Program-made: the position numbers and the translations under genes
In this document: positions 10,635-36,058 of the stretch, piece by piece
How positions within the stretch are numbered: the first letter of the stretch is position 1
Layout: each line of letters starts with the position of its first letter
The notes under the pieces: model-generated
Seen by the model: the letters and a program-made list of their open reading frames with translations, nothing else
The model's database searches: none
What the model was told of the DNA's origin: nothing
Assembly: GCA_012719415.1 (NCBI GenBank)
Contig: JAAYAK010000121.1
Span: forward strand, 1-36,091
Source of the DNA: Syntrophorhabdus sp.
Lineage (GTDB): Bacteria; Desulfobacterota; Syntrophorhabdia; Syntrophorhabdales; Syntrophorhabdaceae
DNA length: 36,091 bases
Direction: 5' to 3'

Positions 10635-10664
10635 CTTGCAGCCTCCTGTATCGCAAATATACCT

Positions 10665-12439: not shown

Positions 12440-12471
12440 AAAGGATCAGGAGACTGCTCCCGCAAACTCCC

Positions 12472-12945
12472 TCAGCGGCAGCGGGCCGTACCCTGGAATG
12501 CCGTTAGAACACAATCAATACCCAGGTTAGCATTAACAGTCGAGCTATCGGCACAAATTCTCTGGTCTTTGAGCCTAGTCAGGATAGCGCCCGCCGAGTC
12601 TGTGCTCTCGAACGTAGGTGTCTGAAGGACCACGTCGCTTCCAGCACATTGATATCCATGGGCGATCGCACCGGTCCTGAAATCAGCCTCCACATAGTCC
12701 TTGAGGGCCTCGGGCCAGTCCGTGGTCATATCCGCTGCCACTGGCAGCGAATGCTTGAACATGGCGTATTCTGTCAATCCTGTTGAAATAGCCCTGATCC
12801 TTTCCTGGGTTGTTGAGAAGTTGGCGGCAGCTTTGCCCTTCGCAAGAAGGATCGCCGTCAGGCCTATCAGGGCCGCCGCGAGCGCCACAACAACGACAAA
12901 TTCGATCAAAGTGAAACCGCCCTTGTTTTTCAGACATTTCTTCAT
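12472..12945 (-). CDS. Type IV prepilin, likely major pilin
   Basis: A 157-residue prepilin. The leader MKKCLKNKGG is followed by FTLIEFVVVVALAAALIG, with Glu at +5 of the mature protein: a textbook substrate for prepilin peptidase. The globular domain has four Cys residues in its C-terminal half, consistent with a disulfide-bonded pilin. GAGGAGG lies four bases before the ATG. By position (after the PilQ/PilR-like assembly genes) it corresponds to PilS of the R64 thin pilus. However, the short leader and N-terminal Phe are of the type IVa or pseudopilin kind rather than the long-leader IVb kind. Confidence 0.85.
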   Translation of the reverse strand: MKKCLKNKGGFTLIEFVVVVALAAALIGLTAILLAKGKAAANFSTTQERIRAISTGLTEYAMFKHSLPVAADMTTDWPEALKDYVEADFRTGAIAHGYQCAGSDVVLQTPTFESTDSAGAILTRLKDQRICADSSTVNANLGIDCVLTAFQGTARCR

Positions 12946-12957
12946 AATTCCTCCTCT

Positions 12958-14178: not shown

Positions 14179-14189
14179 GCTTGCCTCCC

Positions 14190-17940: not shown

Positions 17941-17956
17941 AACCTGCCTCCCGGAT

Positions 17957-19102
17957 CTAGAACCTGTGGCATGTCAACTCTCCCGTCGTGTTTCCCCCAT
18001 TGACGGTGATGGTGTTGATCACAACAGGCGACAGGTAGATGTCGTTGAATATCCTCACAACATCCCTGTAGTCCTTCTGGGCCACCGTGAACTTCCACTC
18101 CCTGTCCCCCCTGGCCGCAACATCGCAAAGGTCCACGAGGGTTTCGAAGGCCTTGGTATTCTGCCGGGCTCTGGCCTCAGCGTTCAACGCCGCCCGCATG
18201 TCAGCCCTGCCTTTCGAGAACACGATCTCCTTTCCGAAGACAAAGAGATCGCCGCTCTTTTTGCTTTCTCGAAAGGGATAGAAGGACTCGAACTGAAAAG
18301 ACAATGTGCCTTTGAGCTCCTGTTCCCGTCCCTTTCCCCGGGGTGAGCCTGCGACGGGCAGGATGCGGAAAACAGCGTTCCTCAAGGCGATGTCTTCGGG
18401 AAGTGTTTCGACGTAGAGTTTGTACTTTACCAGGGCTTCGCCGGTGATGAGTATCGACAATGCCCGTATCTCCTCATGGGTAAGGGGTGGTATTTCCTTC
18501 GTCGCTCTCGCCTTCGCGCCGGGCTCCATTTTTCTCTTCGTAAAGACACCCGCATAGTTCAGAACTGCGCCCATGATGACGGCAACAACGACAAGCACGA
18601 CAACGGCTTGAAGGGAAGTGACCCCGATGGTCACTTCTCTAAGGAGCTTCTCGTAAGAGATATCAACGTAATCCGGTTCCATGGAAAGGGAAGCATCGCC
18701 GAATATCCCGTCGTACTGTCTTCCGGCCATGGCCATGAAGTTCCCGGGGCTGCTGTCCACGCTCAGCATGTACCGCGCCTCGATGGTCGTGTTCCCGGCT
18801 TTGATCTCCATGAAGACGTACTTGCCGTCCCCGCGGTCGAAGAACCCCGCGAGCACCGTCTTTTTGTTCTTCACCATGTAATGGGCCATAAGGTACGCGA
18901 AAGACACCCGTCGCGACGATATCCACCGGTCCCCTATCTTGTGGGAGAGCTTCCCCCGGGGCTTGAGCTTTCGTATGAATATAGGCTCCGCAAAGGGAAT
19001 GACCTTTGCCCCCCTTCCCGGTCTGATCGTCTTCGGATCAACCATTTTCCGGGCAAGAACATCGAAGACGACATTGTCGTCGAACTTCACGTAGAGCTTC
19101 AC
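17957..19102 (-). CDS. PilO-like pilus accessory protein (type IVb)
   Basis: 381 residues starting at a GTG two bases after the secretin stop. A cytoplasmic N-terminal domain (about 1-155) is followed by one TM helix in the middle (about 161-184, TSLQAVVVLVVVAVIMGAVL) and a periplasmic C-terminal half. This central-helix layout and the position secretin-X-PilP-PilQ are those of the type IVb pilin accessory protein PilO of R64. In GspL-like proteins the same layout couples the cytoplasmic ATPase to the periplasmic frame. Family membership is inferred mainly from layout and context. Confidence 0.6.
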   Translation of the reverse strand: MKLYVKFDDNVVFDVLARKMVDPKTIRPGRGAKVIPFAEPIFIRKLKPRGKLSHKIGDRWISSRRVSFAYLMAHYMVKNKKTVLAGFFDRGDGKYVFMEIKAGNTTIEARYMLSVDSSPGNFMAMAGRQYDGIFGDASLSMEPDYVDISYEKLLREVTIGVTSLQAVVVLVVVAVIMGAVLNYAGVFTKRKMEPGAKARATKEIPPLTHEEIRALSILITGEALVKYKLYVETLPEDIALRNAVFRILPVAGSPRGKGREQELKGTLSFQFESFYPFRESKKSGDLFVFGKEIVFSKGRADMRAALNAEARARQNTKAFETLVDLCDVAARGDREWKFTVAQKDYRDVVRIFNDIYLSPVVINTITVNGGNTTGELTCHRF

Positions 19103-19103
19103 C

Positions 19104-20540
19104 TCATATCTCCCTGTCGCCCTTCTCCTCGACGAAGTTGATGAGCACCGTCAACTCGGAGGTTCTGTCCCGGGAGCTGTTATATCCGAACAGATAGGAC
19201 AGGACGGGCAGATCGCCCAGGAGGGGTATCCCCACCCGCTTTTTGTCGGCACTCTTTATCTTGAAACCTGATATGGCAACCGTCTCGCCGACGGACATCT
19301 TGATGGGTATCGAAACGTAATTGCGTTCCACCTGCGGAAGTTCGACCTTCTCGACGACCTGAAAACCAAGAAGATTGGAAAGATCGACACTCGTGTTCAC
19401 GAGATATCCTTTGTCCAGTTTCAGGGGATTGACGGTCATTTTGAGTCCTACCTCCATGCTTGCCATCTGCGGTGTCGTGATCGTCTGGTTGTTGACGACC
19501 TGGATGACGCTGCCCGTGGAGTACCAGACCGTCTGTGACATCTCAAAGGGAAGGACCGCGCCTGAGACGGCCCTTGATTCCCACGAATGGACCACGTGGA
19601 CATCTCCGTAGGTCCCGAGCATCTTTATGAAACCCGCGAAATCCTCATCGATCACGAGCAGTGTGGCAACGTTGCTGTTACCCATCGTTTGAGTGAAATT
19701 CGCATTGAATTCAATGGAAGGGCTTCTCGACTTGAGCAGCGCCCACCAGTTGAGCCCGGTCTCATACTCGTCCTTGTAGTCTATCCGGACAAGGGTGATC
19801 TTCATGGTAATGGTCTTGCGTTTCCTGGAGTCGGCATCCAGCATCTCCCTGACCATCCTGACCCGTGACGGTATGTCCCTCACGTACACGAAGCCGCTCG
19901 TCATCGGCGTGACCACGCCCTTGGCCGAAAGCATCTTCCTGATGCTCTCGATGACCTTCGACATCTCACGATCTTCCGCCTTGTCACCCGTCGATGACGT
20001 TCCCGACGAGTTCCCCGATGTCCCCGAACCTGTGTATCCCACTCCTGCCGACGTGGAAGACGTTCCGTTCAGCGACCGGTTGTTCGATGATGAGGTTTCG
20101 CTCAGCGATTCTTTGTGCCTCACATATACGTCGTGAACATTGAGGATGGTCTCCTCGTAAGGGGTGACAAGGTATGCCCCGTCGGCCACCTTTCTGTAAG
20201 CATAGTCAAGACCGGAAACGATGGTCTCGATGGCCTCCTCGAAAGACTCCCCTTCGTAGTATGCGCTCACTTTCACCTTCGAGGAATCTATCTGGTGGTC
20301 GATGGTAATGCTCGCCCCCGCCTGTCTCCCCAGGGTAAGAAGAGCGTCATTGAGGGACACACCGTTGAAATGAAGGCTCACCGATCTCGCTCCCTCGCCT
20401 TTCACGACCGCCTCGGACAGGAGGGCTCTCTTAAGGGTTCCATCCACCGTTTCAGTGCTGTTTGCAAACCATCCCGGGGCGCAGACCGATGCAATGACCA
20501 CCGCTGCAAGGCCCCATCTGAAAATACCCTTTTCCCTCAC
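19104..20540 (-). CDS. Secretin of the type IVb pilus (PilN-like)
   Basis: A 478-residue outer-membrane secretin. The signal peptide is followed by an N0/STN-like domain (VSLHFNGVSLNDALLTLG and VKVSAYYEGESFEEAIE), a Ser/Thr/Gly/Asn-rich linker (about 145-185), a further N-domain and a C-terminal secretin domain ending with the signature VGIPLLGDLPVLSYLFGYNS. The start was moved to the GTG at 20538-20540: GGAGGAGG lies six bases upstream and the GTG overlaps the previous stop (GTGA). An upstream ATG at 20567 has no ribosome site. No lipobox is evident, unlike many PilN/BfpB secretins that are lipoproteins. It would be the outer-membrane exit for the pilus. Confidence 0.88.
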   Translation of the reverse strand: MREKGIFRWGLAAVVIASVCAPGWFANSTETVDGTLKRALLSEAVVKGEGARSVSLHFNGVSLNDALLTLGRQAGASITIDHQIDSSKVKVSAYYEGESFEEAIETIVSGLDYAYRKVADGAYLVTPYEETILNVHDVYVRHKESLSETSSSNNRSLNGTSSTSAGVGYTGSGTSGNSSGTSSTGDKAEDREMSKVIESIRKMLSAKGVVTPMTSGFVYVRDIPSRVRMVREMLDADSRKRKTITMKITLVRIDYKDEYETGLNWWALLKSRSPSIEFNANFTQTMGNSNVATLLVIDEDFAGFIKMLGTYGDVHVVHSWESRAVSGAVLPFEMSQTVWYSTGSVIQVVNNQTITTPQMASMEVGLKMTVNPLKLDKGYLVNTSVDLSNLLGFQVVEKVELPQVERNYVSIPIKMSVGETVAISGFKIKSADKKRVGIPLLGDLPVLSYLFGYNSSRDRTSELTVLINFVEEKGDREI

Positions 20541-21163
20541 TGAAACCCTCCTCCATCCGATGTGCATCTCTTTATCCGGCAGACAAATCCGTCAGGCGTG
20601 AGAAACGCCCCCTCGTCGCCTGAAAACGCGAGTAAAACCTTTCTTGTCGATCTTTGCGGTATGTAGGACACATTGAAGCCGTCCCTGTCGCTCATGATGG
20701 TGTAGAATGTCTTGCCAGTGCTGAAAGTCCCCCCCGTCGCGGGCACCATATGCAGGAAAGGCATTGTGCCGCCGGCAAAAAGGGTTCTTACCATGGGCCA
20801 CGTGATCTTTCTCGCCCTGTGGACCACGCGTTCTTCGCCGGTATCGAAGACGGCAATAATGAACCTCGGTCCTGGCGTCTCAAGCAATTTGAGGTTGAGG
20901 CCTTCAGGCGGCGGCGCGGCAGGTATATCGAGAACGGCGGCAAGCCTCGCCTGCCATTTTTCACCCTCTGTCGGAGACCGCTTTTCTCCTCCCGGGATGG
21001 TCTTCGCGACTATTGGCCCCTCACTCTTGACGGCTTTCGGTTTGTCGAGAAAGGCGTCTTCCAGTTCCGAAGACATTCCTTGTATCGACAGGACCTCACA
21101 CTGTCCTGAATGTGCATAAAGACATATACATGCCGCAAACAGCGTAGCAAGAACACGTTTCAT
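20537..21163 (-). CDS. Exported protein of unknown function upstream of the secretin
   Basis: A 208-residue secreted protein: signal peptide MKRVLATLFAACICLYAHSG, then a charged region, then a beta-rich domain (RFIIAVFDTGEERVVHRARK, KTFYTIMSDRDGFNVSY) and a Cys pair near the end (CRIKRC). The start was set at the ATG with AAGGAG seven bases upstream, overlapping the preceding stop as ATGA; a longer frame lacks a signal peptide at its start. It occupies the PilM position of an R64-like pil operon but shows no similarity I recognise. A periplasmic partner or pilot of the secretin is a reasonable guess. Confidence 0.7.
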   Translation of the reverse strand: MKRVLATLFAACICLYAHSGQCEVLSIQGMSSELEDAFLDKPKAVKSEGPIVAKTIPGGEKRSPTEGEKWQARLAAVLDIPAAPPPEGLNLKLLETPGPRFIIAVFDTGEERVVHRARKITWPMVRTLFAGGTMPFLHMVPATGGTFSTGKTFYTIMSDRDGFNVSYIPQRSTRKVLLAFSGDEGAFLTPDGFVCRIKRCTSDGGGFQ

Positions 21164-21901: not shown

Positions 21902-23053
21902 CTATGGCGTGAAATAGATCAACACGGGCACTCCCTTTTCCATAAGGAGGGTCGGGTTCTTTTTCGTCGAGCCCTCCACCTTCTTCGACAACCCCTGGAA
22001 GATCGTGTCTCCCGCCGCCAGGCCGCCTTCCCGCAAACGGTCGTCGCTTTTCGTCTGACCCGTCACCGTGACGCCCCCCGCCCCCACCTCTACCGTTGTG
22101 GTATCCTTTCTGAGGGCGTTGAGAAATGACGAGATCCCGGCCATGATCCCGCTCGTGACCGTGCCGGCGACATCCTCATGCCTTACCGCCGATACAACAC
22201 CGTCCGTCTCGTCAACGGATGCCACGTATCCTTTCATCTGATGATGGGCGTTGTCGGGACCGATCACGCCGGACACCTCCACGTGAAACCGGTTGTCGGT
22301 GAAATTGGGCACAGCCCTGCCGACCACTTTCCAACCTTTTACGGGAGGCTCGGCTCCGGTGGCAACAAATACGGCATTTGTCTGTGCCGACGTAAAGGTT
22401 CTATCCACTACTGCCCGGTAAGGCTTATAGTAGCTCACCTTCGGCCCCCCTGCGGCGCCTGAGGGGCCCACCTTCTCGCCATCCCGGTCCCTGGGGACGG
22501 ATTGCGGCTTGTTGACAAAACCACCGGAGCTTTTCTGAAAGTAGAGATACTCCCATGCTTTTCTTTTTGATTCGCCATCATCCCTTTCTCCGGCGCCTTT
22601 TCCTCTTTTTCCTCGTCTGGCGGGGTCGTTGTAAATGCTCTTCCCGTCCCCGTCTCCCGGCATGGACGGGTCCAAAGGATCACTCTCATCGGGTTCTTCC
22701 ATAACGATGTCATCCACAAGTGGATCGCCCCCCTTTTTCTTCTTTCTCACACCAACCCCGCCGACGTATCCGCCCTTGTCGCTTTCCTTGAGCATCTGCT
22801 GTTCTTTCCTGATCGCATCTCCTATGGTGCTTTCGGTCTTCCTGGCTTCGTCCACGATCCGGGACTCTTCCCGCTGTCCGACCTCCTCTCCGGTATTCTT
22901 CGATGGACTGCCCGACCGATTGACATCAAGCTGAGAGATGCGTGTCTTCCTGGAGGTGTTCTTCATGAGCATACCGACCATCACTGACAATATCACCGCC
23001 AGCACTACGACACCCAGCGTGATCGCCATCGCCGGCCTCGAGAACTTCCTCAT
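21902..23053 (-). CDS. VirB10/DotG(IcmE)-like T4SS scaffold protein
   Basis: A 383-residue protein with a single N-terminal TM helix (about 8-30), a highly charged periplasmic linker (about 35-165) and a C-terminal domain of the VirB10 superfamily. The segment TNAVFVATG, EPPVKGWKVVGRAV and then GYVASVDETDGV follows the pattern of DotG/IcmE and TraO C-terminal domains (a lumenal loop, then KG-x-L-x-G). The protein ends GVPVLIYFTP. VirB10 proteins span from inner to outer membrane and gate the channel. It lies three bases after the preceding small gene and 17 before the lipoprotein, at the junction between the T4SS and pilus blocks. Confidence 0.75.
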   Translation of the reverse strand: MRKFSRPAMAITLGVVVLAVILSVMVGMLMKNTSRKTRISQLDVNRSGSPSKNTGEEVGQREESRIVDEARKTESTIGDAIRKEQQMLKESDKGGYVGGVGVRKKKKGGDPLVDDIVMEEPDESDPLDPSMPGDGDGKSIYNDPARRGKRGKGAGERDDGESKRKAWEYLYFQKSSGGFVNKPQSVPRDRDGEKVGPSGAAGGPKVSYYKPYRAVVDRTFTSAQTNAVFVATGAEPPVKGWKVVGRAVPNFTDNRFHVEVSGVIGPDNAHHQMKGYVASVDETDGVVSAVRHEDVAGTVTSGIMAGISSFLNALRKDTTTVEVGAGGVTVTGQTKSDDRLREGGLAAGDTIFQGLSKKVEGSTKKNPTLLMEKGVPVLIYFTP

Positions 23054-23641: not shown

Positions 23642-26383
23642 TTATGAAAAATAGCCGTCTGAATCGATCTTCTTCATTACGGCCCCGATATCGATGGATT
23701 GTCCGATACTCCCGAGAGGAAACATGTCCGAGAGAACCTCGACGGCAACCGCCTGAGCACGCCCTTGCGATACCCCCCTCTCCCTGAGCGTAGATGCCAC
23801 GGTCTCCCTCAGGTAGCGTTCGTCCTTGTGGGTCGTGTAACTCCACCGGGTCCGGGGCGTCTGAACGTTGACAAGAACACCCTTGCCGATATCCTCGTTG
23901 AGTGCCAGGATCTCGGCGTACCTGCCGGGATAGAACTTCAGCGATAGGAGAAGCTCCCTTTCCTGGCTGCAAAGACCAATGATCCTCACCAGGTTGTCAA
24001 CGCCTTCCATTGTCGGATTGTCGGGGGATACGTGGCGTGTGAAATACTTGTTCGACGCGGCGGAGATAAAGTGTTTGCCCTTCTCCGCGACATCGAGGAT
24101 ATCCTGCGTCACAAGGTAGGTCGCAAGCCCCAGCGTCCTTTGCTGCCTTGCGTCCTTGTCGAGCACGTCAAGAATGGGCTCGTTATTCTTCAGGTTATGG
24201 AACTCATCGTAGACAAACAGCTTCGGCCTCCTCTGAGCGGCGAGGATCCAGTCGATAGAGGCGGCAGTGAGAAAAGGCGGCATCTCGTTCGGAAGATAGA
24301 CCGCCTTGCGGTACGCGAAGTCCCGGTAGAGGAGCAACAGGAGCGCAAGGATCTCCTTTCTCTCACTGACAAGGCCCATGTGGATGCAGAATATCTCCCT
24401 GTCAACGGAGAAGTTCGTTACCCCGTTCAGTAGCGCAGCCTGCTCGCCCTGCGCGTACAGATTGAGGATCCGTCTCATCTCTTCGGCGATCTGCCTGTCC
24501 CTGGCGTTTGTATTGATCGCCGGGTCCGATGCGAGGATCCGCATAAGGTCGTTGAGGGTCGGGGTGGCGAGACACTGTGCCGTCTCCGCCCGCTGAAAAT
24601 CCTTTCTCTCGCCCGTATTCAGGAACCGTTCAATATAATGGTTGCGATACTCGATATATGTCTCAAATAGAGGTGCGTCCGAAAAGATCTCTTCCTGGGC
24701 TCCGTTCGTTATTCTCACATTCCGCACAAGCCGGGGCTCCTCTTTGAAAAGACTGTCATACATCCTTTTGACGGCCCGTTCCAGGATGGATCGGGTCTCT
24801 TTGGCAACACCTCTCCCCTCCTCGCCAAGCATCGCCGCGAAAATGGCGTTGAGGGACAGGATCTTCGATCCTGCGGGCTGCTCGAACCCCACCCTCAGGT
24901 CAAACATGTTGACCCTGTTGTCACTGCTCCCAAAGGTTAGGGGGATGAAGCTGCCGCCATAGCTGGAAACAACAGGTTCATACGAAGAGGCCTTCGACAT
25001 ATCAATGACCACGACAACGGGGTCATAGGCCATGGCCCCGGCAATGATCCCGTTGGTGAGAACCGACTTTCCGCTGCCCGTCGGCCCGATGACAAGGCCA
25101 GCCCACCTGTTCTGTCTTGAACTGAAGGGATTGAGTGCCGTAACACCGCCGTAACGGTTTCTGAGAACGATCGCCGGCTCGCCTCGGTCCCCACGGTACA
25201 TCCCGCGCAGCGGCACAAGCTTCAACACGTCATGACCAAAAACGACGTGCGGATCATAGCTCCTGACGGCACACCCCGGAAGGGACGCAATGAAGGCCCC
25301 CTCCTTTCTCATCCATTCGGCGAACACACCTGCCCCATCCACTGCCTTGGCCACGGCCACACGTATGGCCTGGATCTTCTCCTGGAGCTTTTCAATGTCC
25401 TTGTCCCAAGCAAGATAGCTGTTGAAACATTTGACGAGGTTCCAGCCCTGTCTTGCCCGGTCCTGCAAAAGATCGTCGATGGCGGTGATCTTCTCCCTGT
25501 TCTCCACGGCGGCGGCGGTCCTTTTCCCGCTGAAGATGTTCGCCATCAGCCTTTGCCGCGCCAGGTCCCGGGTGATGGTCGACAGGTCCTCGCACAGGAG
25601 GGTCGTGTTCATAACCATCGGGAAATCAACGTTTTGCAGGATCCTGGAACCCGATCCCACCGGAATGACAGTGGGGATGGTATCCATCACCAGGGTTGCG
25701 AAATAGTAGCGTCCGTTGGTCAGGTAATAGTCTTTCGAGTAAAAATCGCTGTTGAACACCCTTTTTCTCAGCGGCAGGAGCATGCCGCATTCCGACATCC
25801 TCATTTCAGGCGGCGGGTCTTCAGGGTTCACCATCCTGGAGATGGCTCGCATCATCTCGGCACCCGAAAGATCTCTCACGGTGTAACCGAGGGGTACCAG
25901 AGTGTCTTTTAGGATCGCCACCGCTTCCCTCATCTGTCTGTCGCGGTTCAGGAAGTCACTGCCCTCGAAACGCTTCTTTTTCTTGCCTTCTATGGAAGCT
26001 TTGGCGGAGAGCGGAACGATCACGGTGCAGTAGAGCGATGTGTCGACAACACCTCTGCCCGACATGAGCTCAGCGATGCTCTCCATTGCCATCGATTCCG
26101 ACAGGGGATCGACATTGAGATGCCTGTACCGGTCAAACAGATCCTTAAGGTCACGGTTGACATGCGTTGTGAACTGGATGAAAACATTCTGTGCTGTGAG
26201 GTTTTTCAAGAACTCGGAACACTTGTTCACTTCCATTTCCATGACCGAAAACTCGACTCCCTCGGCGCCGGCCTGGGTGATCTCGAACCCTCTGGCCTTC
26301 TCGAAGTTTTCCAGGACCAGATGATCGTTACCGACCATGTTGATCGGTATGCGCCGATAGAAAGGAGAAGACCCCTGAAACAT
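23642..26383 (-). CDS. virB4: VirB4/TraC-type T4SS ATPase
   Basis: A 913-residue ATPase, the energy-coupling protein conserved in all conjugative T4SSs. Walker A is GPTGSGKSVLT (about residue 432) and the Walker B region KLFVYDEFHNL (about 720). Between them are a typical VIDMSKASSYEP segment and the C-terminal motif VTQDILDVAEKG, which matches the QxxxD motif of VirB4 proteins. The first 420 residues form the CagE/TrbE-like N-terminal domain. The ATG at 26383 was chosen for AGGAGG eight bases upstream; a 20-codon longer frame overlaps the preceding gene. It sits in the same transcription unit as the three VirB5-like genes. Confidence 0.93.
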   Translation of the reverse strand: MFQGSSPFYRRIPINMVGNDHLVLENFEKARGFEITQAGAEGVEFSVMEMEVNKCSEFLKNLTAQNVFIQFTTHVNRDLKDLFDRYRHLNVDPLSESMAMESIAELMSGRGVVDTSLYCTVIVPLSAKASIEGKKKKRFEGSDFLNRDRQMREAVAILKDTLVPLGYTVRDLSGAEMMRAISRMVNPEDPPPEMRMSECGMLLPLRKRVFNSDFYSKDYYLTNGRYYFATLVMDTIPTVIPVGSGSRILQNVDFPMVMNTTLLCEDLSTITRDLARQRLMANIFSGKRTAAAVENREKITAIDDLLQDRARQGWNLVKCFNSYLAWDKDIEKLQEKIQAIRVAVAKAVDGAGVFAEWMRKEGAFIASLPGCAVRSYDPHVVFGHDVLKLVPLRGMYRGDRGEPAIVLRNRYGGVTALNPFSSRQNRWAGLVIGPTGSGKSVLTNGIIAGAMAYDPVVVVIDMSKASSYEPVVSSYGGSFIPLTFGSSDNRVNMFDLRVGFEQPAGSKILSLNAIFAAMLGEEGRGVAKETRSILERAVKRMYDSLFKEEPRLVRNVRITNGAQEEIFSDAPLFETYIEYRNHYIERFLNTGERKDFQRAETAQCLATPTLNDLMRILASDPAINTNARDRQIAEEMRRILNLYAQGEQAALLNGVTNFSVDREIFCIHMGLVSERKEILALLLLLYRDFAYRKAVYLPNEMPPFLTAASIDWILAAQRRPKLFVYDEFHNLKNNEPILDVLDKDARQQRTLGLATYLVTQDILDVAEKGKHFISAASNKYFTRHVSPDNPTMEGVDNLVRIIGLCSQERELLLSLKFYPGRYAEILALNEDIGKGVLVNVQTPRTRWSYTTHKDERYLRETVASTLRERGVSQGRAQAVAVEVLSDMFPLGSIGQSIDIGAVMKKIDSDGYFS

Positions 26384-26396
26384 TGCCTCCCCCCTC

Positions 26397-27893
26397 CTAA
26401 AACCCTTCGGGCAATCCGCTGTCCTCAGCATACCGGGAAACATCGGGATCTTCCGTGGTCAGCGACTCCGTCATTGCCCGAAGCGCAAGGAGCTTGAGCC
26501 TCTGGTTCTCCATGCTCAGCAGATAATAGTTGAAACGAGCCAGATCCTTCCAGGCCATGTCCTCGTAACCACGGTCTATGGTCGCCGGATCAAACCCCGA
26601 GAGGCCCGACCTGATAGCGGTGGCCATCTCCAGCGATATTCGGGCGACAATATAGTGCCTCACCGCCAGCTTTCTGCGCAGCATTGACGAGTTCCTTCCA
26701 GCGAGGAGGACCGTTATCTTCTTGATGTCTTCCCGGTCAAGAAGCGACACCCTGGCGTTCTCCCGTGCTATGGCTGCAAAGGATCCGGCATCGCCAAGAA
26801 GCCCCTTGACCTCCTGCTCTATCCCGTTATAAAGGCGATCTATGGCACGTTCCTTTTCTTTTTCCAACGACACGGCTTTGTTGACGACCAAAAGAACTGC
26901 GGCGATCCCATCCCTCATTCTTGCCGTCAACGAGGTTCTGATCCCTGCCGCCATATCGACAAGTTCAGCGGTGGATGTCCGCACATATTCCGAAGGAGCG
27001 CCGGTCGCCGCTCTGTCCACGCTTTCGAGGACCCTGGCGATATCCTGAGGGGAAACGGAGGCTTTGCCTTCCAGGCCGCGAAGCTTCTCAAGCCGCGCTG
27101 TGAGATACGTACCGCTGGCACCGCAGAACCCTCTGCTTATCGAATCTGCAAGAGAAACCTCCGCAATGGCGGAAATATTCTTGAGGCCCCCTTTTGCGTG
27201 TATCGCGCACTCGTCGAGTATCTGCCGCGTATTGCCGCTGACCTCGGCGCCTCGCTTTGCCTGTATCCCGTCGGCCACGTCCATTTTCCCGCCAAGCACC
27301 GTCATACGGGAAAGCAATCTTGCAGATACCGGCAGGAACTCCGCGGTCCGGGTTTGAAAGTCCCTGACCTCATCCGCATAGGTAGCCAGGGCTCGCCGGG
27401 AATTGAGAAACTCTCTCCTGTAGTCGCTGAGGACCTCATGAACTCGGCTTTCCTCAAATCCAAGCCGCTTCAATTCCCTGCTCAAGGCCGAGAGTACGGC
27501 CTTGTTCAGGCAGGAGGCAAACATCTCAACGTTCATTCGGGTCTTGAGGAAGGCAAGCTGTGAATCAAGGCCATCGCTGACAATACCGTCGACGAGTTTC
27601 GAAAGATCCGTGGCACCGCGAAGACGTTTTTCGAGCGCTCTGAAACTGCCGGGCAAGAGTGCGAGGTCCAACCTTTCGGAAAGACAGAGTCTGAGCTCCG
27701 TGATAAGGTGATCCTCAACGAGGTTCTTCAGCAAAACCGAGAAATATGGGTAATTCGTCACGGCAATAACAGGTGAGCACTTGACGAAGCAACCACCCTT
27801 GCGTGGAAAAAGGCCGGCGCCCAAAAGAATGCCGCCAGCCACGAGAAAAGACACCAGAAGCAATATCCGTTTCCTGGCCCCGATACGGTTCAT
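26397..27893 (-). CDS. Exported helical protein, VirB5-like paralogue 1 (long)
   Basis: 498 residues with an N-terminal hydrophobic signal or anchor (about 9-27). The rest is almost entirely helical and rich in charged residues. The C-terminal segment SGLSGFDPATIDRGYEDMAW, then KDLARFNYYLLSMENQRLK, is clearly related to the ends of the next two upstream genes. VirB5/TrbJ minor pilins are secreted helical proteins that end in a similar helix with repeated Leu/Ala/Gln, and they usually lie next to virB4, as here. I therefore call it VirB5-like by layout only. The extra 250 residues are unusual for that family. Confidence 0.65.
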   Translation of the reverse strand: MNRIGARKRILLLVSFLVAGGILLGAGLFPRKGGCFVKCSPVIAVTNYPYFSVLLKNLVEDHLITELRLCLSERLDLALLPGSFRALEKRLRGATDLSKLVDGIVSDGLDSQLAFLKTRMNVEMFASCLNKAVLSALSRELKRLGFEESRVHEVLSDYRREFLNSRRALATYADEVRDFQTRTAEFLPVSARLLSRMTVLGGKMDVADGIQAKRGAEVSGNTRQILDECAIHAKGGLKNISAIAEVSLADSISRGFCGASGTYLTARLEKLRGLEGKASVSPQDIARVLESVDRAATGAPSEYVRTSTAELVDMAAGIRTSLTARMRDGIAAVLLVVNKAVSLEKEKERAIDRLYNGIEQEVKGLLGDAGSFAAIARENARVSLLDREDIKKITVLLAGRNSSMLRRKLAVRHYIVARISLEMATAIRSGLSGFDPATIDRGYEDMAWKDLARFNYYLLSMENQRLKLLALRAMTESLTTEDPDVSRYAEDSGLPEGF

Positions 27894-27896
27894 TTT

Positions 27897-28517
27897 CTAC
27901 CGTTCCCCCTCAAGAGCGTCCATCATCTTCAAAAGGGAGAGCAATCTGAGTTCCTGTGCCTGGACCAGTCCTCGAAGATATGCAAGCTTTGCAGCATCTT
28001 TCTGCGCCTGGTGGCGGGAGCAGAAATCGAAGGCCGTGGGCGCAAATTTCTCCAGGGCCTTCTCCATCCGGGAGGCCTTCGCAAAGGCCCTTTCCCCCGC
28101 GGAATATGTTATCAGTCCGGCACCGGACTTCAATGCCCGCAGCTTTGCCGCGACCACATCTGCCACCCCCTGATCCCTGAAGCTGACACGGCGGGCAGCT
28201 TTTTCAATTCTCTTCGCGGTGCTTGCAGATTCTTCAGTGACCCTGAATATCTCCGACATCACGGAGGTCTGCCGCAACACGCCGGCGGCCAACTTCCGCT
28301 TCAGCAGGATGTTGCGGCGCTCATCAAGGTAAGCACAATAGGGGGTTTTGAAAAACGCAGCCCATTGCTGTGCCATTTGAGTGATCGTTGCGTCGGTGGC
28401 AAGAGGACACGGTGGAACTGTTGCGGAGGAATTTCGGGCAAGGCCAAACGTCAGAAGGACCGACGCAATGATCATTACGATGATAAGCCGTGACATCGCG
28501 GGAGGGCTCGACTCCAT
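27897..28517 (-). CDS. Exported helical protein, VirB5-like paralogue 2
   Basis: 206 residues; signal peptide MSRLIIVMIIASVLLTFGLA preceded by seven further codons. The ATG at 28517 is used, but the ATG at 28496 would begin exactly at the signal peptide. The mature protein is helical, with a Cys pair near the N-terminus (PPCPLA and PYCAYL), and ends KDAAKLAYLRGLVQAQELRL, then LSLLKMMDALEGER. This is nearly the same end as paralogue 3 (KDLAKLAYYNAILQSEMLAV). It starts two bases after paralogue 3 stops and is followed three bases later by paralogue 1. Role inferred as a secreted T4SS subunit. Confidence 0.68.
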   Translation of the reverse strand: MESSPPAMSRLIIVMIIASVLLTFGLARNSSATVPPCPLATDATITQMAQQWAAFFKTPYCAYLDERRNILLKRKLAAGVLRQTSVMSEIFRVTEESASTAKRIEKAARRVSFRDQGVADVVAAKLRALKSGAGLITYSAGERAFAKASRMEKALEKFAPTAFDFCSRHQAQKDAAKLAYLRGLVQAQELRLLSLLKMMDALEGER

Positions 28518-28519
28518 CG

Positions 28520-29275
28520 CTAGCGACCCTCCAGCGCCCGGCGCATTTCGCCCTGAGACATTACGGCAAGCATCTCCGATTGGAGTATGGCGTTATAGTA
28601 AGCGAGCTTCGCCAGGTCCTTGACGGCCTGGTCGGACGTGGCGCCATCGATATACGCAGGATCGAAAGAAGATAGTTCCTTCCGGAATCTTTCAGCCACA
28701 TACACCCCCTCGGATGCCTTCTCGTAGGCCGCTACCGACGCCTGGTTGAATACATCGCGGATCTTCACCGCCGCGTATTCGGCCGTGGTGAAATGCTTCA
28801 TTTTGTCGGTGCCGCCGCCCGGAGCACCGGCGAGCAGGATGGATACCTCGCGGATCTTTTTCTGGAACTCCTTGAAATCAGAATTCGCCGACGGGATTGT
28901 GGGTACCGTCTTGCTCTTTGCCGTCTCGGCGAAAAGCTTGCCGTCGCCTCTGGCAAAGGCCCCCGCATTGTTCTTCATATGCTGAGATATCATCTTGTCC
29001 GTGAAGGAGGAGATGTTGTATTTGAGGAAAGAGACGGCTTTGGTATTGATCGTGCCGGGCTCGAGCTTTATCTTCACCTCTTCGTTCCAGACCGCCTTTA
29101 TCTTGTCCGTGATCGCCTGTGTGACCATCTTCTGCACCATGCTCATAAGGGCGGGAAAGTTGATCACCTGCACCGCGGTCCCATAAGCGCTCGTGGCTAG
29201 CAGGAAGAAGATCACGACCCCGCAGATGACCTTCCCCATTGTCGTTCCCGGAATCATTCCTGGTCTGTCTTTCAT
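28520..29275 (-). CDS. Exported helical protein, VirB5-like paralogue 3
   Basis: 251 residues. The ATG at 29275 has GGAGGA five bases upstream; a longer frame reads into the Fic intergenic region. The signal peptide (VICGVVIFFLLATSAYG) follows a short polar start. The mature part is helical and ends with KELSSFDPAYIDGATSDQAV, then KDLAKLAYYNAILQSEML, sharing both the FDPAxID motif with paralogue 1 and the final helix with both paralogues. It is the first gene of the downstream half of the T4SS cluster, so it must be transcribed from a promoter in the 238-base gap before the Fic gene or by readthrough. Confidence 0.68.
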   Translation of the reverse strand: MKDRPGMIPGTTMGKVICGVVIFFLLATSAYGTAVQVINFPALMSMVQKMVTQAITDKIKAVWNEEVKIKLEPGTINTKAVSFLKYNISSFTDKMISQHMKNNAGAFARGDGKLFAETAKSKTVPTIPSANSDFKEFQKKIREVSILLAGAPGGGTDKMKHFTTAEYAAVKIRDVFNQASVAAYEKASEGVYVAERFRKELSSFDPAYIDGATSDQAVKDLAKLAYYNAILQSEMLAVMSQGEMRRALEGR

Positions 29276-29502: not shown

Positions 29503-29524
29503 CTCCGCATTAGGTGCGGAGATT
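29500..29524. promoter_or_regulatory. Downstream operator overlapping the fic -10 and start codon
   Basis: A perfect inverted repeat, AATCTCCGCA-TTAGG-TGCGGAGATT, with the same core and the same five-base spacing as the upstream operator; the two centres are 55 bases apart. It covers the end of the -10 box, the predicted transcript start and the GTG start codon. Binding here would block both transcription and loading of the first codon. Confidence 0.72.
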
Positions 29525-30638
29525 GACCGCTTACATCCATCAACTGCCCGATTGGCCACACTTCTTCTGGGACGATAGACGCTTGTCGCGCCAACTCGCT
29601 CTCGTTCGCCACAGACAGGGAAGGCTGATCGGCCACATCGAAGCCCTTGGGTTCTCGTTGAGGACCGAGGCGGTCCTCAACACGCTGACGCTGGATATCG
29701 TGAAGTCAAGCGAGATCGAGGGATCGGTACTCGACACGGTCGAGGTGCGGTCTTCCATTGCCCGGCGGCTTGGTGTGGATATCGGCGCCACAACCCCGGC
29801 AAGCAGGGACGTAGAAGGCGTCGTCGAGATGATGCTTGATGCCACTCAGAACTACGACAAACCCTTAACGGAGGAACGTCTCTTCGCCTGGCATGCTTCT
29901 CTCTTTCCCACCGGCCGCAGTGGACTGAGCAGGATAAAGGTCAATGCCTGGCGCGATGACAGCAAAGGTCCGATGCAGGTCGTGTCGGGAGCCGTCGGCC
30001 AGGAGCGTGTTCATTTCGAGGCCCCGGCTGCAAGCAGGGTGGAACAGGAAATGAAGGCCTTTCTCGATTGGTTCAACACTGATGACGACACGGATCCGGT
30101 CTTGCGGGCAGGTGTAGCCCACCTCTGGTTCGTCACCATCCACCCCTTCGATGATGGCAACGGCCGCATCGCGCGTGCCATTGCCGATATGACCCTGGCC
30201 CGCTCAGAGGCAAGCTCACAGCGTTTTTACAGCATGTCGGCCCAGATCCGCAACGAGCGGGACATCTACTACGACACGTTGGAACAGGCCCAGCAGGGAA
30301 CACTGGATATTACATCCTATCTGGACTGGTTCCTCTCCTGCCTCCACCACTCCTTTGACGGCGTGGACGGCACTCTCGGAACCGTTCTGAGGATGGCCAG
30401 GTTTTGGGACACCCACGCCAGCGAGACTTTCAACGTGCGGCAACGTCTGATCCTGAGCAAACTGCTCGAGAGCTTCGAGGGAAAGCTGACATCAACAAAA
30501 TGGGCAAAGCTGTCCAAGTGTTCCCAGGATACAGCACTGCGCGATATCCTCGATCTTGTCGCAAGGGGGATCCTGGTGAAGGACCCGGGCGGCGGCCGCA
30601 GTACGAGCTATTCACTCGCGAATGACACAACGTGGTGA
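29514..30638 (+). CDS. fic: Fic-domain AMPylase-type protein with C-terminal winged helix
   Basis: 374 residues. The Fic catalytic loop is complete: HPFDDGNGRIAR (His210 to Arg221). An N-terminal inhibitory helix carries the (S/T)xxxE(G/N) motif as Ser65-xxx-Glu69-Gly70, making this a class II, self-inhibited Fic enzyme. The N-terminus (TAYIHQLPDWPHFFWD) is the DUF4172-type domain common in bacterial Fic proteins. The C-terminal 90 residues (RQRLILSKLLE to WAKLSKCSQDTALRDI and VKDPGGGRSTSYSL) form a winged-helix DNA-binding domain that could bind the two operators upstream. It is expected to transfer AMP to a protein target, which is unknown. It is the only plus-strand gene in the T4SS region. 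Start: GTG at 29514 or TTG at 29523. Confidence 0.92.
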   Translation: MRRLTAYIHQLPDWPHFFWDDRRLSRQLALVRHRQGRLIGHIEALGFSLRTEAVLNTLTLDIVKSSEIEGSVLDTVEVRSSIARRLGVDIGATTPASRDVEGVVEMMLDATQNYDKPLTEERLFAWHASLFPTGRSGLSRIKVNAWRDDSKGPMQVVSGAVGQERVHFEAPAASRVEQEMKAFLDWFNTDDDTDPVLRAGVAHLWFVTIHPFDDGNGRIARAIADMTLARSEASSQRFYSMSAQIRNERDIYYDTLEQAQQGTLDITSYLDWFLSCLHHSFDGVDGTLGTVLRMARFWDTHASETFNVRQRLILSKLLESFEGKLTSTKWAKLSKCSQDTALRDILDLVARGILVKDPGGGRSTSYSLANDTTW

Positions 30639-30674
30639 CCAGTCTCCGTGAAGTCCCCGTCTTGTTAACACCCG

Positions 30675-31061
30675 TCACCAGAAGGTCTTTATTTTGTATT
30701 TGGCTATATCGGCGTCTCGTGTGACGACAGCCATCTTTTCGAGAATTGACTGGGCTATGATAATGCGATCGAAGGGATCACGGTGGATGGCCGGAAGCCG
30801 GGACACATGGAGCGCATGGCTCATCTCGACAGGAAGCGGCTCGATAGCATTCTTCATCAGCTGGCCCGGAATGAATCGATCAGGTCTGTCCGGCAGACGA
30901 AGCCTTCCCAGATTGACCTTTATGGCTATCTCCCAGGCGGAAGCCACGCTCAGGAAGAGCTCGTTCGTCTGATTCCTCATGACATCGCGCACGCGAGACG
31001 ACAGTTGCGGGCTATCGATTATCCACCAGAGGAACACATGGGTGTCCAGGATAAGCCTCAT
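30675..31061 (-). CDS. vapC: PIN-domain ribonuclease toxin (VapC type)
   Basis: A 128-residue PIN-domain toxin with all four acidic residues: Asp6 (LILDTHVFLWW), Glu44 (SAWEIAIK), Asp98 (RDPFDRIIIAQ) and Asp116 (VVTRDADI). The sequence LDTHxxLWW with SAWEIAIKxxLGRL is typical of the VapC subgroup that pairs with Phd-type antitoxins, as here. The ATG overlaps the antitoxin stop by four bases. It ends 36 bases from the convergent fic gene. It is clearly different from the other PIN toxin in this window, so the two modules were acquired separately. Confidence 0.92.
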   Translation of the reverse strand: MRLILDTHVFLWWIIDSPQLSSRVRDVMRNQTNELFLSVASAWEIAIKVNLGRLRLPDRPDRFIPGQLMKNAIEPLPVEMSHALHVSRLPAIHRDPFDRIIIAQSILEKMAVVTRDADIAKYKIKTFW

Positions 31062-31288
31062 CCCTCGTACTCGCCAAGGATCGATTCGGGCAATGGTTCG
31101 TCGAAGTTCTTTTCGATGATCACTTTCCCTTTAGCCGTTCCCGCCACCCGTTGAGCGGTCTTGTCCCGAATGGGAACGAGGCGGGCTATTGGTGTCCCAG
31201 CCCTCGCTATGGTGATCTCTTCCCCGCTTTCCACCCGGTTGAGCAACTCTGATAATCTCGTTTTGGCTTCGTGTATATTCACTCTCAT
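31058..31288 (-). CDS. Phd/YefM-type antitoxin
   Basis: A 76-residue antitoxin. The N-terminal part MRVNIHEAKTRLSELLNRV, then ESGEEITIARAGTPIARLVP, is the Phd/YefM DNA-binding fold. The C-terminal 35 residues (ending EKNFDEPLPESILGEYEG) are acidic and should fold onto the PIN toxin. The ATG at 31288 is the start of family homology. It has no ribosome-binding site, but a promoter -10 box ends six bases before it, so the mRNA would be leaderless. A longer open frame upstream runs through the promoter and is rejected. Confidence 0.9.
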   Translation of the reverse strand: MRVNIHEAKTRLSELLNRVESGEEITIARAGTPIARLVPIRDKTAQRVAGTAKGKVIIEKNFDEPLPESILGEYEG

Positions 31289-31294
31289 AGACCC

Positions 31295-31323
31295 ATAATA
31301 GACTAAGTAGTGGACTAAGTCAA
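31295..31323 (-). promoter_or_regulatory. Sigma-70 promoter and direct repeats of the phd-vapC operon
   Basis: On the minus strand TTGACT (31318-31323), 17 bases, TATTAT (31295-31300), then six bases to the ATG. The plus strand holds two direct copies of GACTAAGT (31301-31308 and 31313-31320) filling the spacer, a likely binding site for antitoxin autorepression. Confidence 0.75.
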
Positions 31324-31397
31324 TATCACCATGTTGTATCGTTGCCCTCGCCCCTGTCCCCTGCTTCATGCTCCCTTTCCCTCTGCCCTTATCATTC

Positions 31398-32468
31398 TCA
31401 CTCCCTCATGAACAGTGCGGGGTCGTTCGTCGCCCTGCGGGCTTCCTCCTCCTCAACCTGTTCCGAATCGACAAGGACCCTGAGGCTCTGGTTGAGCGTC
31501 CAGCCTATCTGACCGCTTCGCTGCTGCTGGCGGAGCAGGTCATGTCTGCCCCGTACCAGGAGCTCGCGGGTACCAACATCCTTCGTGTCCAGCAATTCCG
31601 TGGCAAGGACCAGGCGTCCTGCCGTCGGCACCAGGACCTGCACCATCACGGCGAGGAGAACATCCGCAAGCTCCTCGATCATCCATTCCTGTTTTTCCAC
31701 CGGGAACATCGACGCTATCCGCGAGGGGACCTGGGTCGTCACGAGGGTGTGGATGGTGGTGAACACGAGGTGCCCTGTCTTCGCCGCCTGGATGGCCGCC
31801 GATGCCGTTTCGGGGTCCCTCACCTCACCCACGAGGATCACGTCGGGCCTCTGGCGCATCGCCGCCCTCAGCGCCCGCTCGAAGGAGAGCGTCGTGGTCC
31901 CCACCTCCCGCTCGATGATGTTGCCCATCCCTTCGGGGATGTCGTATTCGATGGGGTCTTCTATGGTAACGCAGTTGATGCATCTCGTCTCCACAAGATA
32001 GGCAATGAGGGAGGCGAGCGTCGTCGACTTGCCGCTGCCCGTGGGGCCGGCGATAAGGATCATACCCCCTGCCGGGCTTTCGAGGACCAACCGGAGGAGA
32101 TCGCCGGGAACGCCAAGATTGAGCGGGTTCGTCTCCACGGACTTCAGGCGTCTCATCACGATGGAAACCCCTTTTTTCGTCATGCACAGGTTGACGCGAA
32201 ACCGGAAGGTCTTCTTTCCGTGGCCGCTGCCCACCTGTCTCGCGTAGGACAGGTCCTTCTCCTCCCTGTCATAGAGTTGCGCCCGGGCGCCGGAGACCCG
32301 GAGGATCCGCTCTATCGCTTCGTCCATCTCGTACCCTTCGGGAGGACCGGAAACAGCGGCCATGCGTCCGTTTATCCTCAGGAAGACGGGACTTTCCGAC
32401 TGGATGTAAATGTCGGAGGCATCCTCACCGACGGCCCTGTCGATGATGTTGTCGAGAAAGCTGTTCAT
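31398..32468 (-). CDS. DotB/PilT-like secretion ATPase
   Basis: A 356-residue hexameric ATPase. The N-terminal PAS-like domain begins ASDIYIQSESPVFLRINGRM. Walker A is AGPTGSGKSTT (about residue 140), the Asp box VTIEDPIEYDI, Walker B RPDVILVGEVRDPETA and the His box FTTIHTLVTTQVPSRI. Length and order match PilT and the T4SS ATPases DotB/TraJ. At the position of the PilT AIRNLIRE motif it reads VGTRELLVRG, so it is probably not a retraction motor. Its place directly after VirB2- and VirB3-like genes argues for the VirB11/DotB role in the secretion channel. It is the last gene before the toxin-antitoxin/Fic insertion. Confidence 0.87.
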   Translation of the reverse strand: MNSFLDNIIDRAVGEDASDIYIQSESPVFLRINGRMAAVSGPPEGYEMDEAIERILRVSGARAQLYDREEKDLSYARQVGSGHGKKTFRFRVNLCMTKKGVSIVMRRLKSVETNPLNLGVPGDLLRLVLESPAGGMILIAGPTGSGKSTTLASLIAYLVETRCINCVTIEDPIEYDIPEGMGNIIEREVGTTTLSFERALRAAMRQRPDVILVGEVRDPETASAAIQAAKTGHLVFTTIHTLVTTQVPSRIASMFPVEKQEWMIEELADVLLAVMVQVLVPTAGRLVLATELLDTKDVGTRELLVRGRHDLLRQQQRSGQIGWTLNQSLRVLVDSEQVEEEEARRATNDPALFMRE

Positions 32469-33192: not shown

Positions 33193-33672
33193 TTACCTCC
33201 TCTCTTCCTTCCTCAGCACGTCCGCGAACATCGCCCTCTCATCGTCAGACTGGAAGTAAATGTCACCCCGGTCAAATGAGAGGCCTCCATAGAGACACCT
33301 TTCCACAGCAGCTTTGAAAGACACGGAAACGTAAACGACAAGGCCGCCACTGACGATGAGCTGGAGCACGGTGATGACGTTCAGACCCCTGGCACCGTTC
33401 GACAACGCTTCGAGGACGATGCCGTATCCACCGGCGCAAAAGGCTATGAGCAGAACGATGAGGCCCGCCATTTTCAGCCACATTGTCATCCTCTTCTGTT
33501 TCGACATGAGAGGGGTGCAATGATCGAGACCGATCTCCTGTCTTGTACCGTCGGCGGTCTCAAAGACAAGCTTCCCGCTGTTTCCTTCCTCGCGTCCGTG
33601 AGATACTATCTTTTTTTGAACAGGCACCGGGATCCTTTCGTCAAATCTACCCGGCAGGTATCTGACAAGCAT
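33193..33672 (-). CDS. Two-TM membrane protein of unknown function, T4SS cluster
   Basis: 159 residues. A cytoplasmic N-terminal domain of about 62 residues (KKIVSHGREEGNSGKLVFET) precedes two TM helices (about 65-87 and 98-118) and a C-terminal cytoplasmic tail (GLSFDRGDIYFQSDDERAMF). It has a good ribosome site (AGGAG) and tight spacing on both sides. No family is recognised. Its position between a lipoprotein gene and the VirB2-like gene makes it a probable inner-membrane component specific to this type of system. Confidence 0.65.
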   Translation of the reverse strand: MLVRYLPGRFDERIPVPVQKKIVSHGREEGNSGKLVFETADGTRQEIGLDHCTPLMSKQKRMTMWLKMAGLIVLLIAFCAGGYGIVLEALSNGARGLNVITVLQLIVSGGLVVYVSVSFKAAVERCLYGGLSFDRGDIYFQSDDERAMFADVLRKEERR

Positions 33673-34338: not shown

Positions 34339-34607
34339 TCTCCCCGCGCCTTCCCGTCACCGGCGGCAGGTTTGCCGGGTGCCGCTGCCCTGGACCCTTG
34401 CCGGAACTGGGAAGGGTATTCCACCGAGAATGACCTCACGAAGGCGATCTGTCGCGAAAGGACACGTGTGAGGGAAAAGCGGCCGGCATCGGGAACAGAC
34501 CCCTGCGGCCCCTCCTGAACCTGCCCCATGACCGGCGACGTGGAACCCCAGACGAGTACAAAGAGGGCCGCACAGCAGCTAACGGCCGTTCGTGAACGTC
34601 TTGCCAT
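34335..34607 (-). CDS. Small exported protein, T4SS cluster
   Basis: 90 residues with a signal peptide (AVSCCAALFVLVWGSTSPVMG) and a short basic mature chain without recognisable domains. There is a strong ribosome site (AAGGAGGG, six bases before the ATG). The gene overlaps the end of the VirB9-like gene by 29 bases and the lipoprotein start by four. It is similar in size to VirB7-type accessory peptides but lacks a lipobox Cys at the cleavage point. Function unknown. Confidence 0.6.
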   Translation of the reverse strand: MARRSRTAVSCCAALFVLVWGSTSPVMGQVQEGPQGSVPDAGRFSLTRVLSRQIAFVRSFSVEYPSQFRQGSRAAAPGKPAAGDGKARGE

Positions 34608-35427
34608 CGCCCACCCTCCTTACCGTTATTTCCCGGCTGCGCGAGGCCACCACGCTTGTCCCGTTGCCGAGGTCCATGACAAACTCGGCATCGCCCACGG
34701 GCATGACCTTCCCGGCTATCATGAAAACATGAAGCTCCGGGCTCGCGAGCTTCATCATCCGTATGAAGGGATAGGTCCCGAGATCCGTCAGCGATGGCGA
34801 CCTGTCCCCGAGGAGAATGTCTTCGACGGAGCCCTTCTCCGGGATGCGCCGCGTCGTGATGATACGCACCATGGCCTCCGTCGTGTCCGTTACACCGCCC
34901 GTGCCTCCCCGCCTGATGGTGACCGTAAGGTCCGCCTCTCCCGATGCTCCATCCTCGACGAGCAGGTAATGGTGGGGCACCCGCTCCCCCTGTGATCCTT
35001 CGAACACGATGATGTTGGTCGACTTGAACTCCTTCACCGGAAAGATGATGAGGGAATTACCCCTGACCTCGATGGAGAATTTTTCCCGGGAGCCTATCGC
35101 GATATCGTCGACGCTGAAACTGTACGGAAGATTGATGACGCTCCCGTAGCCGTAGGCCAGGCGGATGGTGGGCACAACGCCTGGCACTTCATCGATATCC
35201 CGCTCCCTCATGCGGGACAGCACGCGATCCTTTTCTATAAGAGGCTTCAAGCGCTGCGCCTTCTCCTTCATCTCGACGATGTCCTTCTCGGGAAGATCGA
35301 AGGGTGGGACAACGATCTGCCCCTCCGCCTGCTGCTTCGGCACCTCCTGTGGTGTCTCCGGCGCGGCCTCAGCCACCGGCAGGCTCAGAAAAACGGACAA
35401 TATACAGACCGAAAGGGTTCTCAACAC
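34579..35427 (-). CDS. VirB9/TraK/DotH-like outer-membrane complex protein
   Basis: A 282-residue exported protein: signal peptide LSVCILSVFLSLPVAEAA, then a beta-rich body. The segment GYGSVINLPYSFSVDDIAIG, then SLIIFPVKEFKSTNIIVFEG, is the N-terminal beta-sandwich pattern of the VirB9/TraK family (promoter-distal strands with TNIIVF). DotH/IcmK belongs to the same group. It starts at a GTG with AAGGAG six bases upstream and overlaps the VirB8-like gene by 59 bases. It should form the core complex with the VirB10-like protein encoded 12 kb further on. Confidence 0.72.
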   Translation of the reverse strand: MLRTLSVCILSVFLSLPVAEAAPETPQEVPKQQAEGQIVVPPFDLPEKDIVEMKEKAQRLKPLIEKDRVLSRMRERDIDEVPGVVPTIRLAYGYGSVINLPYSFSVDDIAIGSREKFSIEVRGNSLIIFPVKEFKSTNIIVFEGSQGERVPHHYLLVEDGASGEADLTVTIRRGGTGGVTDTTEAMVRIITTRRIPEKGSVEDILLGDRSPSLTDLGTYPFIRMMKLASPELHVFMIAGKVMPVGDAEFVMDLGNGTSVVASRSREITVRRVGDGKTFTNGR

Positions 35428-36058
35428 TGCGCGCTCCTTTGTACAGCTTTATCTCGTATGTCTTCACCTTGAGGTCTTCGCTCGCCGCTTCCTCTCCGAC
35501 AACACGGACGGCGTTGAGCCTGACCGAGGCAAGAACGACCGCTTCCCTGCCGCGTATCCTGGAGTCCTTGAGGGCGTTCCACTCAGCGGTGACGATGAGC
35601 TTCTGATCCGACAGGGACTTGAGATAGTTGTCCCGGTACGGCTCGTAGAAGGCCTTGAAGGACCCGGGATCGAAACGCTTCGACACGCGGCTCATCCGGT
35701 TGGTGAGATCGCCCTGCGATCTCACCTCCACGTAGGTCCAGCCGAGTATGTCCCTGATCGCGTCCCTGCAGAATATCTCAAGCTCGGGCCAGTGGATCCT
35801 GTCCGGATCATCGACGCGGATGAGCGATGGCCTTCCCGTGGAATCCATGAAGACGATCTTGTCCTTCCCTTTCCCCGCGACCACGATGACGATCGACGCC
35901 ACCACCATGATGATGCTGAGGACCACCGTGGCAACGGGAATGACAAGAAGGGCCCGGGATGTGAGCTTCAATCCCCGAAATATGCCTATCTCTATTGCAA
36001 GGGCCTCACCGCCTTCCGGCACCGGCGCCTTTTTCTTCCTTTTCCCGAAAACAGCCAT
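35369..36058 (-). CDS. VirB8/DotI(IcmL)-like inner-membrane protein
   Basis: 229 residues: a basic cytoplasmic start, one TM helix (about 36-61) and a periplasmic domain of the VirB8/NTF2-like type. WPELEIFCRDAIRDILGWTY near its start and YKGARSVENPFGLYIVRFSE at its end follow the pattern of DotI/IcmL and TraM (R64), which also end with a xxxENPxGxxxxxF motif. VirB8 proteins nucleate the inner-membrane part of the channel. It is the first complete gene at the right edge; the ATG has GGAG shortly upstream and the transcription unit probably begins outside the window. Confidence 0.75.
   Translation of the reverse strand: MAVFGKRKKKAPVPEGGEALAIEIGIFRGLKLTSRALLVIPVATVVLSIIMVVASIVIVVAGKGKDKIVFMDSTGRPSLIRVDDPDRIHWPELEIFCRDAIRDILGWTYVEVRSQGDLTNRMSRVSKRFDPGSFKAFYEPYRDNYLKSLSDQKLIVTAEWNALKDSRIRGREAVVLASVRLNAVRVVGEEAASEDLKVKTYEIKLYKGARSVENPFGLYIVRFSEPAGG

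Follow-up and report, generated by a model that had tools for sequence, protein, structure and literature searches.

In Helicobacter pylori, the type IV secretion system (T4SS) proteins CagH, CagI, and CagL are encoded in one operon, carry a common C-terminal motif, and together make up a pilus subassembly (PMC3164655, PMC10194873). The motif is needed for function, and the complex of the three proteins serves pilus biogenesis (PMC3164655). CagL has been called a functional equivalent of VirB5 without sequence similarity or clear structural homology to it (PMC10194873). Bartonella carries amplified copies of trwJ, its VirB5 gene, which evolve faster than the core of the system (PMC2883598). 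In I-type systems, TraW (IncI and IncL/M plasmids) and IcmX (Dot/Icm) are listed as the counterparts of VirB5 (PMC12624023).

The locus described here lies in a window of 36,091 nucleotides, positions 1 to 36,091 of contig JAAYAK010000121.1 of Syntrophorhabdus sp. (GCA_012719415.1); coordinates refer to this window unless a relative's locus is named.

Three adjacent paralogues

Three consecutive open reading frames on the minus strand encode an exported-type helical protein of 251 amino acids (p251; 28520..29275), the shortest paralogue, of 206 amino acids (p206; 27897..28517), and the longest, of 498 amino acids (p498; 26397..27893). Their positions, lengths, and C-terminal motifs proved to be as the initial annotation had given them: KDLAKLAYYN in p251, KDAAKLAYLR in p206, and KDLARFNYYL in p498. 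Its observation that two of the three share FDPAxID also holds, with FDPAYID in p251 and FDPATID in p498; p206 has FAPTAFD instead. In the window, 2 bp separate p251 from p206 and 3 bp separate p206 from p498, and across all genomes with the trio, neighboring trio genes overlap by at most 4 bp and are at most 4 bp apart. The p498 gene ends about 10 bp upstream of the gene for a VirB4-like ATPase.

A hydropathy scan found a single, conserved N-terminal hydrophobic segment in each protein, from which we infer export. Judged by eye, the N-termini of p251 and p206 look like cleavable Sec signals; the segment of p498 could be either a cleavable signal or a membrane anchor. None of the three carries a prepilin signal. 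The two cysteines of p206, C37 and C61, are both retained in 7/7 orthologues.

In the window's own genome, a tblastn search with p251 matched p206 (34% over 87 amino acids, E 9e-8) and p498 (35% over 65 amino acids, E 7e-5), and tblastn and profile searches recovered no relatives of the three proteins there other than each other. Alignment of whole-protein profiles with hhalign gave 97.1% for p251-p206, 96.6% for p251-p498, and 89.0% for p206-p498, values that became 97.8%, 97.4%, and 95.5% with the C-terminal domains alone. For the C-terminal domains of p251 and p498, the score of 64.3 compares with a maximum of 19.8 among 60 column shuffles. By these profile comparisons the three are true paralogues with a homologous C-terminal domain of about 70 to 95 residues, well above chance, so that the short shared C-terminus first noticed extends to a domain aligned at 95 to 98%.

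The first ~66 mature residues are also common to p251 and p498 (score, 31.1; maximum of 60 shuffles, 16.5). p251 is thus laid out as an N-terminal domain (residues ~33 to 80, common with p498), a middle region, and the C-terminal domain common to all three (~156 to 251). p498, whose N- and C-terminal regions both match p251, is therefore of the p251 type, enlarged by an insert of ~310 residues (~86 to 395) ahead of its C-terminal domain (~396 to 498). This insert evolves faster than the C-terminal domain, with 32 to 35% versus 54 to 55% identity between the most distant orthologues. p206, on the same alignments, is the C-terminal domain (~111 to 206) on a different, cysteine-bearing N-terminus that begins with the hydrophobic segment.

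The surrounding secretion system

The trio lies between the genes for two ATPases. Downstream is the VirB4/TraU-like ATPase (23642..26386, minus strand), recognized by Pfam P-loop_TraG and the NCBIfam VirB4 models and matching R64 TraU best; alignment of orthologues places its conserved start at 26386, not 26443. Upstream is a VirB11/DotB/TraJ-like ATPase (31398..32468, minus strand; Pfam T2SSE), for which the NCBIfam PilT family scores best, the TraJ model gives 7e-40, and R64 TraJ stands far above TrwD and TrbB. Three further candidates lie on the same strand: a DotI/VirB8-like protein (35369..36058; PF11393, E 2.2e-5, under the family cut-off), for which R64 TraM ranked first without significance; a DotH/VirB9-like protein (34579..35427; PF12293, E 0.008, and the VirB9 model TIGR02781, E 2.7e-4, under cut-off); and a probable DotG/VirB10-like protein with one N-terminal transmembrane segment (21902..23053), for which R64 TraO ranked first, again not significantly, and whose orthologue weakly matches TrbI (E 0.08). 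VirD4, which is TrbC-like, was read from relatives' longer contigs. The ATPases match R64 TraU (3.5e-8), TraJ (5e-32), and TrbC (4e-34) best, above the R388 and R751 proteins, and in terms of sequence the host system is a divergent I-type (R64/Dot-like) T4SS. On the relatives' longer contigs, the cluster starts beside proS, at the same site in different species; it is apparently chromosomal, since this site is fixed across species, and not carried on a plasmid.

In one relative (G004, locus L026), the order DotB-p251-p206-p498-VirB4 is uninterrupted, with no Fic and no toxin-antitoxin genes. Between the DotB and p251 genes of the window (29514-31369) lie a Phd/VapC-type toxin-antitoxin pair and, on the opposite strand, a Fic-domain gene. 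This arrangement is found in four genomes; G006 and G008 have the pair plus Fic fragments only.

VirB6/DotA/TraY went unrecognized by profile (TIGR04346 had no match in the window's own genome), and a simple hydropathy scan saw no protein with five or more transmembrane segments in the cluster. Over the window (1-36091) and the relatives' loci L021-L024, L036-L041, L046, and L047, the cluster is apparently without this component despite candidates of the VirB2, VirB3, VirB4, VirB8, VirB9, VirB10, VirB11, and VirD4 types. No relaxase was noted in the cluster. A search for the MOBP type (PF03432) located relaxases away from the cluster, on separate contigs, in some genomes but none in the system-carrying G002, G004, G006, and G007, of which G006 is only 74% complete.

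Several other genes accompany the cluster. Directly after the T4SS genes comes an R64 pil-like type IVb pilus cluster (10791-20567) with a secretin, PilQ-like and PilR-like genes, a second T2SSE ATPase, and two N-methylated pilin-like genes; a TacA1-like/PIN gene pair adjoins it (10003-10784), and an autotransporter with a strong beta-domain match lies at 6324-8945. A 159-amino-acid protein with two central transmembrane segments (33193-33672) is kept with the cluster and has no Pfam match above threshold. In relatives, the interval between VirD4 and DotI holds a small two-transmembrane pilin-like gene on the opposite strand (L046:932-1186, plus strand), which matches Pfam T4SS_pilin only at E 0.076.

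Distribution and selection

VirB4 and all three trio genes occur together in 7 of the 12 Syntrophorhabdus genomes, p251 having orthologues in six genomes besides that of the window, and the trio is intact in none of the other five. Every genome with the trio has each paralogue in single copy and the three directly before VirB4. The other five genomes lack VirB4. One of these (G001) is weak evidence of absence, because it is only 66% complete; another (G008) has no more of p251 left than its first ~65 residues. At this degenerate locus (L027, ~8249-8632), the p251 match ends at residue 65 and the sequence then diverges; p206, p498, and VirB4 are missing, and the VapC/Phd pair and upstream T4SS genes are still there.

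Beyond the genus, no relatives of the trio were found in the sampled members of the family and order, in 395 genomes across the phylum, or on viral contigs; plasmids yielded one chance match and nothing else, and a PDB sequence search gave matches at chance level only. In the same genome sample, close relatives of the cluster's VirB4 were confined to the genus.

A tree of the C-terminal domains resolved three orthologue clades (branch supports, 88/97, 90/87, and 100/99), and the duplications therefore most likely predate the species splits. Pairwise NG86 comparisons against the window gave dN/dS values of 0.07 to 0.13 for p251, 0.07 to 0.12 for VirB4, and 0.20 to 0.33 for p206 and p498, with the caveat that dS is above 1 and unreliable in several comparisons and that the most distant p206, p498, and VirB4 pairs were inestimable. 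By these estimates the trio genes are under purifying selection, and on the distribution and tree the trio is an old set, co-inherited with VirB4 over a long time.

Relation to VirB5, TrbJ, and TraW/IcmX

The trio had been described at the outset as a VirB5-like set at the position of virB5. What stands of this is that exported-type paralogues directly precede VirB4 in a T4SS operon; a signal of VirB5 homology is what failed to appear. None of the three proteins matches a Pfam or NCBIfam family, PF07996 (VirB5) included, and PF07996 has no match in the window's own genome at E 1e-6. Alignments by hhalign of the trio with VirB5, TrbJ, and TraW stayed at noise level, TraW not rising above shuffles. 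As controls, VirB5-TrbJ was detected (80 to 88%) and the accepted pair DotI-TraM was missed; profile comparison is a weak test of VirB5 kinship, because accepted pairs of this kind also fail it.

Three apparent leads were discarded. The p498-VirB5 alignment scored above all 25 shuffles, but it spans 16 columns at a probability of 1% and is one of nine comparisons made with the mature proteins, and we do not count it as evidence. TrwJ ranked first, second, and fourth among 43 T4SS proteins against the mature p251, p206, and p498 profiles, with scores that were all noise; the three queries are non-independent, and a combined 21-row profile puts TrwJ at rank 6. Equating the trio with R64 TraT, TraV, and TraW by size (266, 204, and 400 amino acids) was dropped because TraT and TraV, judged by eye, are without signal peptides and no comparison reached significance.

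Structure prediction had been proposed as a check, and it returned helical models of low confidence and no significant VirB5 match by profile or fold. An AlphaFold2 model from seven orthologues had a pLDDT of 36.8, and one from a 21-row composite alignment had 48.1. The composite model, of low confidence, is all-helical, with one helix at the N-terminus and two long ones at the C-terminus; its pLDDT reaches 58 to 69 only across the last ~90 residues. Foldseek searches with these low-confidence models gave best matches at E >0.8, an R388 stalk chain appearing at rank 29 (E 3.4, not significant); the VIA-align matches listed were mostly generic helical bundles with Z below 8 and included no VirB5 chain; and a library of viral protein structures gave no match.

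Of the traits by which VirB5 proteins might be known, the trio has a predicted export-type N-terminus and genes beside virB4. It shares with TraW/IcmX a gene adjoining a traU-type gene in an I-type T4SS; the DotA/TraY partner that goes with TraW/IcmX was not recognized in the system. No other VirB5, TraW, or IcmX candidate was recognized in the cluster. The VirB5-type reading is drawn from where the genes lie, from the export-type N-termini and helical make-up of the proteins, and from the lack of a competing candidate. VirB5 homology is for these proteins an unproven label: families, profiles, and predicted folds, none of them a strong test here, gave no significant match.

Proposed role and alternatives

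The interpretation to which we incline, with modest confidence, is that the trio forms a multiparalogue stalk/tip subassembly of one chromosomal I-type T4SS and works like VirB5, TraW, and IcmX; position and parallels suggest that stalk or tip is probably its function. The two-helix C-terminal domain might be a common assembly module that binds the trio members to each other or to the machine in the periplasm. The slowly evolving p251 would then be the structural core subunit, and the faster-evolving p206 and p498, the latter with its inserted domain, would be specialized subunits of the stalk or tip that may face the partner cell. Counting against a stalk/tip role, family, profile, and fold searches gave no significant match, no VirB6/DotA partner was recognized, and the gene order is unlike that of IncI, where TraW follows TraU, as the TraW gene directly does in several I-type plasmids. 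A bolder version, in which an I-type T4SS lost VirB6/DotA and a hetero-oligomeric stalk of three paralogues replaced the VirB5-VirB6 or IcmX-DotA pentamers, seems to us quite unlikely.

The strongest competitor, which we consider somewhat unlikely, makes the three proteins periplasmic scaffold or accessory parts of the envelope-spanning complex, outside the central stalk or pilus tip, akin to the additional subunits peculiar to individual expanded T4SSs. The N-terminal hydrophobic segments, operon position, and co-inheritance fit it equally well, a family limited to one genus is often what accessory subunits are, and the missing VirB5 profile match agrees with it. On that view, however, no protein of the system would be left as a VirB5/TraW/IcmX candidate, and the VirB4-side position and all-helical make-up weakly favor stalk proteins.

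Differing lengths with a common C-terminal region, together with the faster evolution of p206 and p498, might also be expected of surface adhesins or cargo secreted by way of the T4SS without belonging to the machine. The C-terminal domain would then be a secretion or sorting signal, and a sorting role has been suggested for the C-terminal hexapeptide of the Cag proteins (PMC3164655). Yet what is common here is a domain of ~70 to 95 residues rather than a short tail, and proteins with such Sec-like N-termini should enter the periplasm ahead of any T4SS step. Moreover, p251 keeps to the slow pace of VirB4, which is not typical of cargo, and loss of VirB4 goes with loss of the trio, so we regard cargo as unlikely. 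That the trio belongs to the R64-like type IVb pilus is highly improbable: the secretin, PilQ-like, PilR-like, and N-methylated pilin genes do lie downstream on the same strand, but the trio sits amid T4SS ATPase genes, several T4SS genes away from them, and has no prepilin signal.

If the stalk/tip reading is right and the trio makes up one such structure, it would be a case from a nonpathogen of a T4SS tip built from several paralogues, with distinct paralogue lengths kept across a whole genus. It would allow the idea of a hetero-oligomeric tip to be tested and could show what tips recognize in a syntrophic community, a setting in which contact between cells is central.

Comparison with known systems

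VirB5 (TrwJ, TraC; PF07996) and TrbJ resemble the trio as exported helical proteins of ~200 to 260 amino acids encoded, in the TrwJ type, near VirB4; they differ in being single-copy in most systems, and the trio has no Pfam or significant profile match. TraW and IcmX share export, an I-type T4SS, and a gene adjoining TraU/VirB4, and p498, at 498 amino acids, approaches TraW (400) in size. There is, however, one such protein per system, its gene comes after traU where the trio comes before, and a DotA/TraY partner is present.

The Bartonella TrwJ proteins are likewise several VirB5-type paralogues in one T4SS that evolve faster than the core, but their copy number varies between species and the copies recombine, whereas the Syntrophorhabdus paralogues are of ancient origin, differ strongly, and never occur in more than one copy each.

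By analogy, the closest functional parallel would be CagH/CagI/CagL: again three co-operonic, lineage-restricted, export-type T4SS proteins with a common C-terminus. The Cag motif is six residues long, although CagI and CagL have a wider C-terminal similarity than the three-way motif, and the trio shares a domain of 70 to 95 residues; the Cag system is also a different T4SS lineage, and the likeness is drawn from published descriptions. The initial remark that normal systems have one VirB5 tip protein has to be qualified, because Cag and the TrwJ copies are precedents for several, and its companion, that no described family fits, survives for the sequences (nothing in Pfam, NCBIfam, the PDB, or plasmids) and not for the concept. 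Given these two precedents, what the libraries searched did not contain is the sequence family, not the principle. The trio is a real set, undescribed in the sources searched, and most likely consists of stalk/tip parts of one T4SS.
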